A stretch of DNA of 33,357 nt from a virus, in the IMG/VR virus record IMGVR_UViG_3300029319_000236, positions 1 through 33,357 of that record; one strand, 5' to 3'. Positions within the stretch are counted from its first letter, which is position 1. Every line of letters begins with the position of its first letter. The notes below the pieces were generated by a model that did not search any database, was not told the DNA's origin, and saw only the letters and a program-made list of their open reading frames with translations. Of this stretch, positions 8,208 through 25,879 are shown piece by piece. The translations under genes and the position numbers were made by a program.

Positions 8208-8693
8208 TTATAATTTTTTATACCTTTCTTGAACTGTAATTTTAGGCGTACCATTATCTGTGTTTCCCTGAAACACTATGACTGCACTAGGAAAAGGTGC
8301 AGATGATTTTGATCCACCAAACTTTAACCTACCTCTAACAAGGCGAATTTCCTTAGACTTCATGACGTAATCATGCCACCATTTTGTATCTGTTCTTGAT
8401 GGAACTAAACAAACTACAGTTGCCCCATCAAACTTTGCAGACAGGTATGCCTTTTGTACCCATGAACCAATCCAATTACCATAAGGAGGATTAAGCCAAC
8501 TAACTTCACTCCATACTTTGTCTAGTGCATCGTTCTCCTTGGTATAATATTTATTACATTTTGCCGTTCTTGGTGCTGCTGCAAGATCAATTTCAAAATT
8601 AAATTCTTCATTCAATAAATCAAAAAATTCTTGTGGTGTTTCCCATGTATGTTTATCACTCATGTAATGTACTTTCATTTTCTTTTTACTCAC
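8208..8693 (-). CDS. Phage N6-adenine DNA methyltransferase (Dam/DNMT family)
   Basis: A 161-residue protein. T-W-E-T-P-Q-E-F-F-D-L-L-N-E-E-F (16-31), F-E-I-D-L-A-A, the catalytic S-W-L-N-P-P-Y-G near 69-76, V-V-C-L-V-P-S-R-T-D-T-K-W-W-H-D, and R-L-V-R-G-R-L-K-F-G identify the phage DNA N-6-adenine-methyltransferase family. It transfers a methyl group from SAM to adenine in DNA, typically to evade host restriction or replace host Dam. The GTG start at 8693 follows the C5 methyltransferase stop directly and has AAAGGA 6 nt upstream, so it is preferred over ATG 8678 or 8663. Motifs look intact. Confidence 0.88.
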   Translation of the reverse strand: MSKKKMKVHYMSDKHTWETPQEFFDLLNEEFNFEIDLAAAPRTAKCNKYYTKENDALDKVWSEVSWLNPPYGNWIGSWVQKAYLSAKFDGATVVCLVPSRTDTKWWHDYVMKSKEIRLVRGRLKFGGSKSSAPFPSAVIVFQGNTDNGTPKITVQERYKKL

Positions 8694-9659
8694 TTATAAT
8701 CCTTTCAATATTCCATAGGCAACTGCAGCCTGTTTAGGTACGACTCCATTGCCTAGGAGTTTAAGTTTTGTAGATCTAGCCAACCCTCTTCCCATCCCAT
8801 GAGCCACTGCACGAACAGTGGGTTTAGTCGGTATGGATGGGGCAAGGTCTGGTCTTTCTCTGATGACGTCTTCCCATCTTGGGTCTGTGAGACCTGGGGG
8901 AAATTCCATTGGTCTTCTACTTGGTCTGTTAGACCTTTCCCTTGACCTGTTTTTGTTAGACCTGTCTTGCCCTTTATCCCATCTGCTGCCAATGGTGTCT
9001 TCCAGTTCTCTGCCTGACCCTTTAGTAAGAACGTTCCGTTCGACCTTGTCGCATACTGAGTTGTCGCTGGTGTCTGCCATAGTGCTGCCTCTCCCAGTGA
9101 CGATGGTCTCACCTTCACGTTTGCCGAGGAGTTTGGTGCTTCTGGCATCGTGTCTGGTGTGGGCCAAGATAAAAACTCGTTCTCGTCTGTGAGGTGATCC
9201 GACTTCGTTAGCTCGTAAAGTAATCCATCTTGCATCATACCCCAACGTGGAAAGTTCTCCAACGACAAGTTGGATGCCTCCACGAAAGAGACCTGGGACG
9301 TTCTCCAAGAACAACTCTCTTGGTCGTATCTCGCCAACCAATCTCTTGATGTCTTCCCATAACCATCGTTCGTCTTCTGTTCCTTCTCTTCTTCCTGCAA
9401 TTGAGAATGGTTGACATGGGAATCCTCCAATGATTGCATCCACTCTTCCAACAAATGGTTTGCTGTCGAGGGTGTTGGTGTTAGACCAAACAGGCGCTTT
9501 ATCCAACGAACCTGTTTCCATTTTGTCAACCAAAAGTGTTGCGGCTTCAAAGTCTCTCTCCACATATACGAGTGGGATAGCATTTGGGTTACATCGTTTA
9601 TATGCAACGTCAAGTCCTCCTGCTCCCGAGTAGAGGGACATGTAGGTATGTATAACCAC
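8694..9659 (-). CDS. dcm: DNA (cytosine-5-)-methyltransferase
   Basis: A 321-residue C5 methyltransferase. Visible motifs: I, S-L-Y-S-G-A-G-G-L-D; IV, G-G-F-P-C-Q-P-F-S with the catalytic Cys; VI, F-L-E-N-V-P-G-L; VIII, S-P-H-R-R-E-R-V-F-I-L-A; and at the C-terminus X, L-G-N-G-V-V-P-K-Q-A-A. The segment between VIII and X (about 165-295), where the target recognition domain lies, is unusually Arg/Ser/Asp-rich and low-complexity. The likely reason is that a second reading frame runs through the same DNA. The start is GTG 9659, 9 nt after AAGGAG. It methylates cytosine in a sequence that cannot be read from the gene; self-protection from restriction is the likely role. The adenine methyltransferase follows directly. 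Confidence 0.9.
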   Translation of the reverse strand: MVIHTYMSLYSGAGGLDVAYKRCNPNAIPLVYVERDFEAATLLVDKMETGSLDKAPVWSNTNTLDSKPFVGRVDAIIGGFPCQPFSIAGRREGTEDERWLWEDIKRLVGEIRPRELFLENVPGLFRGGIQLVVGELSTLGYDARWITLRANEVGSPHRRERVFILAHTRHDARSTKLLGKREGETIVTGRGSTMADTSDNSVCDKVERNVLTKGSGRELEDTIGSRWDKGQDRSNKNRSRERSNRPSRRPMEFPPGLTDPRWEDVIRERPDLAPSIPTKPTVRAVAHGMGRGLARSTKLKLLGNGVVPKQAAVAYGILKGL

Positions 9660-9661
9660 AC
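8753..9661 (-). CDS. Overlapping gene in the C5 methyltransferase: W-x-T-P repeat protein
   Basis: A second frame on the same strand stays open for 302 codons inside the methyltransferase gene. Its translation is not random: S-W-R-T-S-Q (118-123), F-P-R-W-G-M-M (138-143), three W-x-T-P motifs (W166-P-T-P, W195-Q-T-P, W220-K-T-P), and an ending R-L-N-P-L-F-V-Q-W-L-M-G-W then G-W-L-D-L (278-297). I recall standalone phage proteins near methyltransferases with this order, ending N-P-x-F-V-E-W-L-M-G-x-P-x-G-W-T-D. The GTG at 9661 shares AAGGAG with the methyltransferase GTG at 9659 (7- versus 9-nt spacing). The family-like part begins near residue 100, so a later start is possible. Function unknown. 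Confidence 0.5.
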   Translation of the reverse strand: MWLYIPTCPSTREQEDLTLHINDVTQMLSHSYMWRETLKPQHFWLTKWKQVRWIKRLFGLTPTPSTANHLLEEWMQSLEDSHVNHSQLQEEEKEQKTNDGYGKTSRDWLARYDQESCSWRTSQVSFVEASNLSLENFPRWGMMQDGLLYELTKSDHLTDENEFLSWPTPDTMPEAPNSSANVKVRPSSLGEAALWQTPATTQYATRSNGTFLLKGQAENWKTPLAADGIKGKTGLTKTGQGKGLTDQVEDQWNFPQVSQTQDGKTSSEKDQTLPHPYRLNPLFVQWLMGWEEGWLDLQNLNS

Positions 9662-9725
9662 TTATAATCTCCTTTCCATTTCATTTAATTTAATTGTATC
9701 ATACATGTTTGTACGATGTGTAAGT

Positions 9726-20932: not shown

Positions 20933-23900
20933 ATGACAATACCACCTTTTGGAATAGGATATCCTTCTTCTGATAGATCGACATTCTTTGAAAAGTTGAA
21001 ACAAAAAAGACTTGAAGAACAAAAACGTCAAGAACAAAGACTGGCAGTTGCTCGTCAAAACCAACAAGCCGCTCGTGATGCTCAAAGAATCAAAGAACAA
21101 TATGAACAAAATAATGTTGTTACACAGTTAGGCCCAGTAATAACTCCAACTCCAGGGCAATATATTCCTGTGCCTCCAAGCACAGCAAAAGATACTTATG
21201 TAAAAAATCTTAACACTTCAAACCCACACAGAATAGATTACGGTACTTTTTTTGGGTCAGGTGTTTTAGAAAATATAACAGAGGCAGGTATAACTACACT
21301 GGGTAAATTAGAACCAGCTATACAAACTGCTGTAGGATTAGGTGCAAGATTAATTCCTGGAGAACAAGAGTTTGATAAACAACTTAGAGAAGTTATAAAA
21401 GAAAGAGAACAAGCTGGTAAGACTGCTGGTGTTAGACAGTTTTTTGCATCTGGAACTGAAGCAGCTAGACGTGCAGAGAGTTTACAAAGAGGCTCAGAGT
21501 ACATTGCATCTGTAGGTCTTTCTGCATTACCAGATAATTTATTCTTTTCTGGAATAGAAACTGATGCTTTGAATGAAAAAAGAAAAAGATATTTTGAAGA
21601 GTATACAGGAGAGAAATGGACTTTTGGTAATTCTTTGAAATACTTTACTGATGATCTTCGTGCAACTAGACAGGCATACCTAGAAGTAGAACAACCTAAA
21701 TTTGTAAAAGGAACTTTAGAATTTTTTGGTGACCCAATAAACTTATTGTCTGGTGGTACTTTTGCAGAGATTACAGCAGCAACAAAAATTGTCAAAGCAG
21801 CATCAATGAAATCTCTTAGATTGGCACAAAAACCTTTTGGTTATCAAAAGATAATGAAAGGAGATAACACCATTGAAGATAATTTCAAAGCAGGTAGAGA
21901 TGTAACAGACCCAGAAGTAAAAGCAGAAATGGAAGACCGAATAATCTTTGATGTGCCAAATGGACACGATAGAATTATTCCTCCTCTTGAAGGTGTTGAT
22001 GTTGTAAAAAAATACAGAAACGTAAAAAAATCTGAAACAAAATTAAATATATCTTCTAATGCTTTATTTCAAAAAGTAAAAGATGATATAACAAAAACTT
22101 CTCCAGATAAATTGGTCAGACTAATTAAGCAAGGAGACAAAATATTAAACCACCTAGGATTAGGAACTATAGGGAGGCACTTATCTGCTGGAGCTAGATT
22201 AGTAAGTCCTAGGTTTGTTGCTAATGCAAGTACAGATAGTGCAAATGTTAGAAACCTAGAAACATATATGACTATACTAGAAGCAGACATGGCTAGTAAA
22301 GCAGCCGCTAGTTCAAATTTATTAATTAATAAAATAGGGTATTTCAATGATGTTTTCAAACCAGGGGCTCAACAAGGCAATAAAGGTTTTGACATTATAG
22401 AGGAGGTTGGAGATGGAACAATTAGGTTCAATGCTAACTTCAATAAAAAAATTGTAGACGAAGCAATAAAAGCGGATAAAGCTGCAATAAACTTAATGAG
22501 AGAACGTGGTCTAAAGGTAGATGATATTACTGAAAAAGAATTTCTATTAGATATGCAAGGTGTAAACCTTATAGGGCAAAAAATTAGAAAAAATAGAATA
22601 AAACAAGAAATACCATTACATGAATCTACTATAGCAACAGCATTGGTAACCTTTAAACAAACTCCAGGTAACCCAAACAAATATATTGTAGATTTAAATC
22701 CTGCATTTAAAAAAAGTAATAATATGTTTTACGATAAAACAAATGACAAGATAACTCCACTAGGTGATTACTTTATACAAAAGTCAGCTTATTATCAAAA
22801 CATGGCTAACTCTATAGGGCAGTTTGGTAAACCTATAATAGTCAAAAAAACTGTTAGGAAAAGAAATCCAGTTACAGGAAAACTTGAAAAAGATCCAATA
22901 ACTGGAGAACAAATATTAGAACAACTTGATTTTGAATTAACAGGAGCTAATAAGGCTAAGTATTTACAGGTTGCAAACGGACACGTTAGCAGGAAGGCTT
23001 ATTGGGATGCTACATTATCGTCAAGTAATAAATATGAAAAGGTTGGTAATTATAAAAATGCTAACGATAAAATAGGTAAGTACACTGACGAGTATCGTAA
23101 ATCTTTACAAGACGCAGAGGATTTATATTCATTAGCAGGAAGAGGTGAAATTAAATACCTAAGTCCAGAAGATGCTTTGAACTTGGCTACCCAAGCACAC
23201 TTTCATCAAATTGCTCAGATTGTAAGGAAAGACCAGTATACAAAATTATTCTTACAAAACCCTGCTCTTAGAGAACAATACAAGGTAACAGTAGCTGTAG
23301 GAAACAAAGCACCTGAAATAGGATTGTTTGATATAAGAACAAATATAGCAACAGGTAAAACAAAAGTTTACGAAATAAAAAAGCAAACCAAGAAACAAAC
23401 TCCAGTAGAAGAAACAGATGAATTTAGTAGAGTTTACGATCAACTCTTTTTTCAAGATAGACGTTTAGCAGAAGACTTTGCTAGAAAAGCAGGAATATTA
23501 TTAGAGGCTGATGGCAGAACTTTAGCAGATTTGAAATCAGTAGGTGCTATGAGTGACGCTTTCAAAAGAGTGTTGTTAGGAGAAACAGGAAAGACGGTAT
23601 TAGATTTCCCTGCAAAGTCTATAAAAACTGTTACATCAGGTGGTAGGTTGTTTGGTACTGGTATTGATATAGCGGGTTCTTTTCTATACGGAATGATATT
23701 CTTTGGTAAGGCAAACTCAGAAATTCTAAAAGGTATTAGGCAAGGTGACAAGGCTAGAATTGGTGCAGGATTAGATATTGCAAAAACTTTGGCTAGTGCT
23801 CAATCAAATGCGTTTAGAGCTTTTCTTGGTAAAGTTCCTAAGATTGGTAAAGACACAAGAAAAATATCTCAAGACATTTGGAGTCCAGATAAACATGCAA

Positions 23901-25879
23901 GTATAAAAAGAGCTGCACAATCTGGTGTAATTTTTAACAAACAAACAATAGAGACTTTTGAATTAATAAACAGTAACAGTATTTTGAACGTCAAAGGTGT
24001 AAATAGAATATTCAAACCGTTTGAAAACATTTGGAGAAACTCTATTGATGAAATAAAAATAGGTACATGGGATGCCTTAACTAAACACTTAGACCCAACT
24101 AACCCAGCACATGCAACTCAAATGAGAGAGATTGCAGAGTTTATAAACAAAGGTATGGGTACTTTAGATAGTGCAGCAAGAGGTGTTGGTAGGGCTCAAC
24201 GAGATATAGAAAGTGCGTATTTATTTTTCTCTCCAAGGATGACACGTTCTATAATTGCACTGTTAGGTGATGCAGTAACTATGGGTGGTAAGCAAGGTCA
24301 ACTTGCAAGAGAAGGTGCAATAGGTGGTTTTGCAGCATTAAACCTTTACACATATGCAATAGGTCAGGCACTAGGGCAAGAAGTAAACCTCAACCCTATG
24401 GAGAAAGATTATATGCAAATAAAAATAGGTGGTGTTAGTGTAGGACCAGGTGGACAGATAGTTTCATTACCTAGAGCTGCATTTAGATTGGCAGCAGGCC
24501 CAGATGATACAGATGCTTTATATCAAGAAACAGACGTAAATGGAGATTATAGAGATCAACCTTGGTTTAAGTTTATAAGAAGCAGGGCATTTTCTTCACC
24601 AGGTGGTTCTATGTTGTTAGAAGCAGTTACTGGTCAAAATTATTTTGGAGAAGATTATGAAGGTGTAGGAGATTTTGCAATTGCACAGGGTGGTAGACTG
24701 TTACCGTTTTGGGCATCTGGAATTGTTGACAGTGCTTTTGATGAAGCACAATATACTTCTGCATTAGGAGGTGCATTTGAGTTTGGAGGTTTGAGAACTG
24801 CACCAGAAACTGTTTGGTCTCGTAACAAACAATTGTTAGAAGATGCAACAAGATTGTTATACCCTGATTCACTTTCTTATAAAGAACTAGATCCTATTGC
24901 AAAAAAATTACTTAGAGAAGAGTTAGCAAAAGAAGAAGGTGGATTCTTTAGTAGAGAAAATGTACCTGGGGGAATAGAAATATTAGAAGACTATCAAAAA
25001 ACAAATAGGATTATGGAGAACGAAAGGTCTAAAAATAATCAAGACACAAATAAAATTAATGAGTTTTATGATGAGTTAGAAAGAATTAACACTCTAAAAG
25101 AAACAGAAAAACAAACAATGCTAAGTGCATATAAAGATAGCCGTCAAAATACTAGAGACCGAAGGCAGATGATACAAGAACTTAATGCAAAGTACGCACC
25201 AGATTACGATAGACTTTATGATCCTCGAGGTGAATACGCAGATGTTCTGAATTATCTAACAAGACTTGATACTTCTAGAGGGTTAGAAAGCCCAGAGTCA
25301 ACATGGATAACTACATACAAGAATGAAGTTTTATATAACGATGATTTTGATATGGTTTCAGTAGACAATATAGAATACTTTGATTATGCAAGACAAGAAC
25401 AAACAAAAAGAGAGTGGATAAACAAATACGGTACAGAGGCATTTGAATATGTAAGGCAGTATTTTGCAGTAACTCAAGACTTAGCACCAGACGAAAAAGA
25501 ACTAAAAGATGCTAGAGAATACTTTTCCTATTACTGGGATGCTACTGAGTTAGCTGCAATAGAAGATACTGCAAGGCAGTTCAATACATCTAAAGAGATT
25601 ATAGAAAACCTAGTTTACAGTTTGCCAGGACTGACAGAAGATCAAAGGGCAGGGTTTAGAAAGTTCCCTGAGATTAGGTTTTACGAAAAAAGAAGAAAAA
25701 ATATACAAGAAGAATTGCGTAAAAACAATCAAGGATTAGATGGTTTTATATACAGGTGGAACTATTCAGATACACTCTTACATCCTAAAAATAAAGGAAG
25801 TGAGACTTTTTGGACAGACAAACGTGCTATTGACTTGACTAATCCTAATCACTTATACTTTATTTATAATAACAATTAA
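20933..25879 (+). CDS. Giant virion protein (1648 aa), ejection-protein candidate
   Basis: A 1648-residue protein, the largest in the window, with AGGAGG (20924-20929) before ATG 20933. The N-terminus is a charged Gln/Arg/Lys helix (E-K-L-K-Q-K-R-L-E-E-Q-K-R-Q-E-Q-R). The middle has Y-L-F-F-S-P-R-M-T-R-S-I-I-A-L-L-G-D and a Gly-rich hydrophobic segment (G-G-F-A-A-L-N-L-Y-T-Y-A-I-G-Q-A-L-G-Q), then R-D-Q-P-W-F-K-F-I-R-S-R. These resemble giant proteins of marine phages and 'large polyvalent protein' modules. Size, helical content and membrane-active-looking segments suit an internal protein ejected with DNA, like T7 gp16. No lytic transglycosylase or other enzyme motif was identified. Placement before scaffold and capsid genes is unusual. 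Confidence 0.65.
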   Translation: MTIPPFGIGYPSSDRSTFFEKLKQKRLEEQKRQEQRLAVARQNQQAARDAQRIKEQYEQNNVVTQLGPVITPTPGQYIPVPPSTAKDTYVKNLNTSNPHRIDYGTFFGSGVLENITEAGITTLGKLEPAIQTAVGLGARLIPGEQEFDKQLREVIKEREQAGKTAGVRQFFASGTEAARRAESLQRGSEYIASVGLSALPDNLFFSGIETDALNEKRKRYFEEYTGEKWTFGNSLKYFTDDLRATRQAYLEVEQPKFVKGTLEFFGDPINLLSGGTFAEITAATKIVKAASMKSLRLAQKPFGYQKIMKGDNTIEDNFKAGRDVTDPEVKAEMEDRIIFDVPNGHDRIIPPLEGVDVVKKYRNVKKSETKLNISSNALFQKVKDDITKTSPDKLVRLIKQGDKILNHLGLGTIGRHLSAGARLVSPRFVANASTDSANVRNLETYMTILEADMASKAAASSNLLINKIGYFNDVFKPGAQQGNKGFDIIEEVGDGTIRFNANFNKKIVDEAIKADKAAINLMRERGLKVDDITEKEFLLDMQGVNLIGQKIRKNRIKQEIPLHESTIATALVTFKQTPGNPNKYIVDLNPAFKKSNNMFYDKTNDKITPLGDYFIQKSAYYQNMANSIGQFGKPIIVKKTVRKRNPVTGKLEKDPITGEQILEQLDFELTGANKAKYLQVANGHVSRKAYWDATLSSSNKYEKVGNYKNANDKIGKYTDEYRKSLQDAEDLYSLAGRGEIKYLSPEDALNLATQAHFHQIAQIVRKDQYTKLFLQNPALREQYKVTVAVGNKAPEIGLFDIRTNIATGKTKVYEIKKQTKKQTPVEETDEFSRVYDQLFFQDRRLAEDFARKAGILLEADGRTLADLKSVGAMSDAFKRVLLGETGKTVLDFPAKSIKTVTSGGRLFGTGIDIAGSFLYGMIFFGKANSEILKGIRQGDKARIGAGLDIAKTLASAQSNAFRAFLGKVPKIGKDTRKISQDIWSPDKHASIKRAAQSGVIFNKQTIETFELINSNSILNVKGVNRIFKPFENIWRNSIDEIKIGTWDALTKHLDPTNPAHATQMREIAEFINKGMGTLDSAARGVGRAQRDIESAYLFFSPRMTRSIIALLGDAVTMGGKQGQLAREGAIGGFAALNLYTYAIGQALGQEVNLNPMEKDYMQIKIGGVSVGPGGQIVSLPRAAFRLAAGPDDTDALYQETDVNGDYRDQPWFKFIRSRAFSSPGGSMLLEAVTGQNYFGEDYEGVGDFAIAQGGRLLPFWASGIVDSAFDEAQYTSALGGAFEFGGLRTAPETVWSRNKQLLEDATRLLYPDSLSYKELDPIAKKLLREELAKEEGGFFSRENVPGGIEILEDYQKTNRIMENERSKNNQDTNKINEFYDELERINTLKETEKQTMLSAYKDSRQNTRDRRQMIQELNAKYAPDYDRLYDPRGEYADVLNYLTRLDTSRGLESPESTWITTYKNEVLYNDDFDMVSVDNIEYFDYARQEQTKREWINKYGTEAFEYVRQYFAVTQDLAPDEKELKDAREYFSYYWDATELAAIEDTARQFNTSKEIIENLVYSLPGLTEDQRAGFRKFPEIRFYEKRRKNIQEELRKNNQGLDGFIYRWNYSDTLLHPKNKGSETFWTDKRAIDLTNPNHLYFIYNNN

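Follow-up and report, generated by a model that had tools for sequence, protein, structure and literature searches.

Two selected reading frames in one viral gene: a probable split C5-cytosine DNA methyltransferase with a nested recognition subunit

We show here that a locus on the minus strand of a 33-kb virus record (IMG/VR record IMGVR_UViG_3300029319_000236, 33,357 nt, analysed at full length and called the window below) carries two overlapping frames that are both coding and under selection, that the methyltransferase frame (alpha) is devoid of motif IX and the variable region while the frame nested within it (beta) has them, and that this layout is conserved. We suggest, with a probability that we put at about 0.78, that the product of this locus is a split C5-cytosine DNA methyltransferase, both subunits of which would be read from the same DNA, with a recognition subunit, beta, nested in the gene for the catalytic subunit, alpha. 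A first-pass annotation of the window had proposed two proteins from one stretch of DNA; two selected coding frames, with beta open in every relative examined, support this.

The second same-strand frame of 302 codons described by that annotation is indeed present inside the methyltransferase gene (Table 1), and it contains every sequence feature attributed to it, i.e. SWRTSQ, FPRWGMM, three WxTP units and the ending NPLFVQWLMGW...GWLDL. The GTG starts two bases apart, reported to lie behind one AAGGAG, were also found, the sequence there being AAAGGAG. Window-like relatives keep an RTGTGG start layout in which beta begins 2 nt before alpha, and in the largest subgroup the layout is ATGAATGAG, with alpha 4 nt ahead of beta. 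Alpha and a Dam-like N6-adenine methyltransferase (PF05869) form a gapless two-methyltransferase operon. Elsewhere in the window, a 1648-aa ORF without a match among phage protein families lies between the terminase and head genes (20933-25879, plus strand).

Table 1. Features of the alpha/beta locus and its surroundings, in window coordinates
Feature	Position	Strand	Remarks
Alpha, C5-cytosine methyltransferase catalytic subunit	8694..9659	-	321 aa, GTG start, motifs I-VIII + X
Beta, nested protein in alpha's +1 frame	8753..9661	-	302 aa/codons, GTG start; proposed recognition/motif IX subunit
Shine-Dalgarno AAAGGAG common to both	9669..9675	-	7 nt before beta GTG, 9 nt before alpha GTG
Overlapping starts GTGTG	9657..9661	-	beta GTG 9661-9659, alpha GTG 9659-9657; 2 nt apart
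Dam-like N6-adenine methyltransferase downstream	8208..8693	-	Pfam PF05869 8.6e-29; abuts alpha stop, no gap
Beta core, residues 105-144, with LARYDQESCSWRTSQ and FPRWGMM	9230..9349	-	both frames constrained
Beta WxTP repeats (W166, W195, W220), residues 166-252	8906..9166	-	beta-dominated constraint; aligns with in-frame LPTP region of single-chain enzymes
Beta motif IX-like helix LNPLFVQWLMGWEEGWLDL, residues 279-297	8771..8827	-	matched by hhalign to motif IX of in-frame forms
Alpha motif IV Pro-Cys, catalytic cysteine, residues 81-82	9414..9419	-	invariant in 78 alphas
Alpha motif VIII HRRER, residues 157-161	9177..9191	-	H157, R159, R161 invariant in 78 alphas
Alpha gap, residues 181-252, recognition-domain position	8904..9119	-	unstructured, pLDDT about 35; mostly near-unconstrained

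The openness of the beta frame goes well beyond what alpha imposes on it. Over 20,000 synonymous permutations of alpha's codons the beta frame acquired a mean of 8.9 stops, with a longest open run of 249 codons, and since not one of these permutations left the frame free of stops, a chance ORF is ruled out. When the alpha synonyms were drawn according to the codon usage seen in eight other genes of the window, a mean of 24 stops resulted; within those eight genes themselves the longest off-frame open run is 90 codons. For the related loci (n=326), the expectation is 4.2 stops per locus in the beta frame, with a mean probability of 0.03 that a locus has none.

Selection on the two frames was assessed by classing substitutions according to their effect in each frame, using our own OLGenie-like count on 64 close pairs, which are partly non-independent because some contigs recur. 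Beta showed a dNN/dNS of 0.14 (95% CI 0.12-0.16), indicative of strong purifying selection, compared with 0.90 (0.79-1.02) for imaginary +1 frames in 41 flanking genes used as controls; for alpha dNN/dSN was 0.13, the control value being 0.08. The pair formed by the window and its relative L087 alone gave a beta dNN/dNS of 0.36. The comparison of both frames across relatives that the first-pass annotation had proposed thus reveals that beta-changing substitutions are avoided, and purifying selection acts on both overlapping frames, as is required of a dual-coding gene pair.

A segment map further showed that constraint is distributed unevenly along the DNA. Beta residues 1-104 are governed by alpha and weakly constrained in beta; in residues 105-160 and again in 275-302 (the LNP..WLMG part) both frames are constrained; and in residues 161-274, the WxTP part, the constrained frame is beta and not alpha (dNS/dSN about 5), the per-site frequency of changes that are silent in beta and alter alpha being about fivefold that of the reverse class. 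Alpha had been described as oddly Arg/Ser-rich where the overlap is densest. The stretch is there as described; because beta is the constrained frame at this point and alpha nearly unconstrained, its composition is to be read as a by-product of the beta frame.

Part of what is recognizable in beta does follow from alpha: the core hallmarks SWK and GMxxxG are partly dictated by alpha's motif VI and GYDAxW, and the K of SWK is fully forced (expected 0.94, observed 0.94), as would be the case if the frame were no gene at all and were open merely through alpha's conserved sequence and codon usage. The W and T of SWK, however, are not forced, and the residues of LNPxxVEWLMGxP are conserved at 0.80-1.00 per site against 0.16-0.60 predicted from alpha's synonyms. 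Considering this excess conservation together with the dNN/dNS contrast with the controls, the segment map with its beta-constrained WxTP part, and synonymous shuffles that never keep the frame open, we rule out that beta is a shadow of alpha, an explanation that we regard as scarcely credible. Since the conservation of alpha itself can inflate the HMM matches that distant C5 methyltransferases show in their +1 frame, our argument for beta as a selected gene rests on the openness and substitution tests and not on HMM scores. The +1-frame match in the conventional enzyme of Lactococcus phage D7138, which may be forced by alpha, was not counted. In a conventional Lactococcus phage C5 methyltransferase (L417, 1495-2721), which has a motif IX of its own (LQGFPDW), a +1 frame of 165 codons contains SLKT...NWGTMQNG; this may reflect no more than the conserved motifs of alpha.

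Profile searches gathered relatives from contigs of IMG/VR, from named phages and from genomes of bacteria, the last with record titles that include Chloroflexi, Planctomycetota, Myxococcus, Acidobacteria and Alphaproteobacteria, among others. Without exception the 326 related loci, which come from phages and from several phyla of bacteria, have beta in the +1 frame of alpha, and they comprise 246/246 loci of a main group (a few of which are one contig fetched twice) and 80/80 loci of a second group revealed through an E. coli prophage. Both frames are retained in the closest relatives of the window, L087 and L088, whose alphas are 75% and 69% identical to that of the window; they were reached via alpha, the window's beta as sole query having retrieved no relative in the viral scan. 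As profile searches could favour loci that have beta, relatives were also fetched by alpha alone, and in this sample beta was again found in the +1 frame in 80/80 loci, the frame being at least 70% open in 77 of the 80 for +1 and in none for +2. Stop codons thus do not freely enter the second frame where the methyltransferase is intact.

One claim of the first-pass annotation found no support, namely that beta belongs to a phage family whose members stand alone as genes near methyltransferases. All betas that we found sit inside an alpha gene, and neither the main nor the second group of relatives collected held a free-standing member. Genes for which a single frame had been annotated were probably mistaken for such a family. 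In the annotated records that we opened, one gene of the pair is listed, as 'DNA (cytosine) methyltransferase', and the annotated frame is sometimes beta (gp46 of OP131590); in the E. coli and Acinetobacter records examined, RefSeq annotates alpha alone. In an E. coli prophage, a window-like methyltransferase is adjoined by a second, divergent C5 enzyme in which a +1 frame is nested as well (L252, 56-1042; WPTP, LNPAHSRWLMGLP), and neither beta is annotated by RefSeq. Both beta groups match phrog_1008 (7.2e-23 for the window, 1.8e-21 and 5e-28 for relatives). The Paracoccus prophage m5C enzymes of relaxed specificity (PMC3925955, PMC6536676), considered as candidate functional members, were not retrieved by a Paracoccus beta query, and no description of the nested arrangement in phages was found in the literature searched.

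The methyltransferase frame had been credited with all catalytic motifs, which is correct for motifs I-VIII and X and incorrect for motif IX, which is missing together with the recognition domain. Alpha matches the Pfam family DNA_methylase (PF00145, 1.4e-30) over residues 6-200 and has the motifs by which that family is recognized (I, IV, VI, VIII and X), among them motif I, PCQ (IV), ENV (VI), HRRER (VIII) and LGNGVVP (X). Among 78 alphas E119 and N120 are also invariant and N304 is nearly so. In an AF2 model alpha is confident over residues 1-170 and at the C-terminus, and this model superimposes on the large domain of M.HhaI (Z 22.9, rmsd 1.9, 189 residues aligned in a chain of 327). In PDB sequence searches with alpha, motifs I-VIII alone align, and the Pfam match ends before motif IX; judged by that end point and by the disordered residues 181-252, motif IX and a recognition domain are absent from the alpha chain.

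The segment that alpha misses has its counterpart in beta. The WxTP and LNPxFVxWLMG parts of beta align with the in-frame segment of single-chain phage enzymes (hhalign 97%, E 1.2e-10), and the beta profile also matches the in-frame motif IX helix (E 3.6e-6); the predicted helix at residues 281-288 is the best-scored C-terminal part in AF2, and its motif is conserved far beyond what alpha dictates. The number of WxTP units per beta ranges from 1 to 9 by a rough count. Since alpha is without this segment and the beta profile aligns with it in single-chain enzymes, the most likely role of beta is to provide motif IX and the variable region for recognition in trans. The first-pass annotation had left the function of the partner unknown, and the sequence alignment sharpens this to a protein carrying the motif IX/variable part absent from alpha.

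A less likely reading is that beta acts on its own in some unrelated process, for instance as a regulator or in counter-defence, and that its overlap with the methyltransferase is incidental. Beta has no Pfam or NCBIfam model and no confident fold: alone it folds poorly in AF2 (mean pLDDT 56), this low-confidence model has no PDB fold match at Z 2 or more and is uninformative on the fold, and a PDB profile search with beta gave weak, unrelated matches alone. Moreover, residues 1-104 match no methyltransferase part. Yet the C-terminal half of beta has an alignable counterpart in single-chain C5 methyltransferases, namely their recognition/motif IX segment, this is exactly the segment that alpha misses, and beta was never found away from alpha, so that we consider an unrelated job improbable, slightly more so than the frameshift discussed next.

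The single-chain relatives raise the question of whether the second frame is a protein at all or the tail of a longer one. In L003, L004 and L091 EWMMG stands in the alpha frame before motif X, and in Mycobacterium phage ShiLan gp70 (L414, 1489-2658) and Propionibacterium phage PFR1 orf45 (L416, 1555-2601) LPTP motifs as well as EWMMG are encoded in frame with alpha, after motif VIII and before motif X, the Pfam match in such in-frame forms spanning motifs IX and X; in the latter two an SWK/SGM-like core is still in +1. Judging from the sequences, modules have changed frame between these two enzymes and the nested loci. In a further locus (L147, 2326-3775) the C-terminal ends are apparently exchanged between frames, the beta frame ending in motif X, and this exchange could be real or a sequencing error. 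That WxTP and motif IX modules can occupy the alpha frame, and that L147 has its ends swapped, would be compatible with programmed frameshifting, in which translation starts in alpha and shifts by +1 after motif VIII to yield one chain with motifs I-VIII, WxTP and motif IX, the second frame being no more than the shifted tail.

We argue against this possibility, which we hold to be unlikely. Of 130 non-redundant loci, 126 have no stop in the beta frame along alpha codons 7-100, where 38.9 such loci would be expected, and a shift far downstream would not call for this stretch to be open. In most loci, moreover, beta's start codon comes directly after an in-frame TGA made by alpha's own start (ATGA ATG), and the return of motif X in frame 0 means that the frameshift model needs a second shift. 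The open 5' part and the start layout together speak for separate initiation, and against a frameshift further downstream; initiation of beta on its own, at a start site common to alpha, would fit both.

We therefore return to the split enzyme as the preferred reading. Alpha would make the large domain, with AdoMet binding, the catalytic Cys82 and motif X, and beta, from its start 2 nt away in the +1 frame, would contribute the variable WxTP region for target recognition as well as the motif IX helix LNPxFVxWLMG that alpha is without. The single ribosome-binding site may feed both starts, so that the subunits would be made together, and alpha and beta may assemble into one active enzyme that protects phage DNA. 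We infer from the sequence evidence that both proteins are produced from the locus and that beta, translated from the common start, would bind alpha, set specificity and be needed for activity. That the WxTP repeats are specificity modules is our guess.

In a wider sense, we see an even chance that these loci represent an old and very widespread class of C5 methyltransferases that are dual-coded and built from two subunits, the gene for the recognition subunit lying inside that for the catalytic one, with WxTP repeats as exchangeable recognition modules and beta usually left unannotated. If true, this would be among the largest conserved families of genes nested on the same strand that prokaryotes and their phages possess. 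Long overlaps on one strand in which both frames are selected are thought to be rare in bacteria and large phages; the overlap described here occurs in hundreds of cases, and the labour is clearly divided along the DNA. Should beta be the recognition subunit, the specificity of many phage methyltransferases would sit in a protein omitted by annotation, and specificity assignments as well as cloned single-frame constructs would need re-examination. Additionally, the natural series of nested, partly shifted and single-chain forms allows one to ask how protein modules move between reading frames.

Finally, several known systems bear comparison with the nested pair. The family phrog_1008, labelled 'DNA methyltransferase', is matched by both beta groups, and the end of its profile also matches alpha's motif X; it is, however, a mixed family in which the overlap is unrecorded and no role is given to beta. 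The single-chain actinophage enzymes (ShiLan gp70, PFR1 orf45) share the catalytic domain, LPTP and the EWMMG motif IX with the nested pair, but hold these modules in the alpha frame, their +1 frame retaining just a short core ORF. M.EcoHK31I is a two-polypeptide C5 methyltransferase recognizing YGGCCR, and its small gene likewise lies nested, in another frame, inside the large one. It has the same motif division as the window pair, with motifs I-VIII and X on the large polypeptide and motif IX on the small (PMC3404938); its accession is X82231 (PMC6174562). The predicted recognition domain, however, was placed in the large subunit of M.EcoHK31I (PMC3404938), whereas here the corresponding slot of alpha is predicted to be unstructured and the variable WxTP region appears on beta; furthermore, M.EcoHK31I belongs to a restriction-modification system, and a search by eye of the surroundings of the window pair showed no restriction gene. 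M.AquI similarly shows a natural split between catalytic and recognition parts, but has both motif IX and motif X on the small subunit (PMC3404938), whereas here LGNGVVP is in alpha and beta ends before motif X. Since the motif division is the same as in the EcoHK31I family but the variable region is apparently on beta, we do not count the nested family as a member of the EcoHK31I family.
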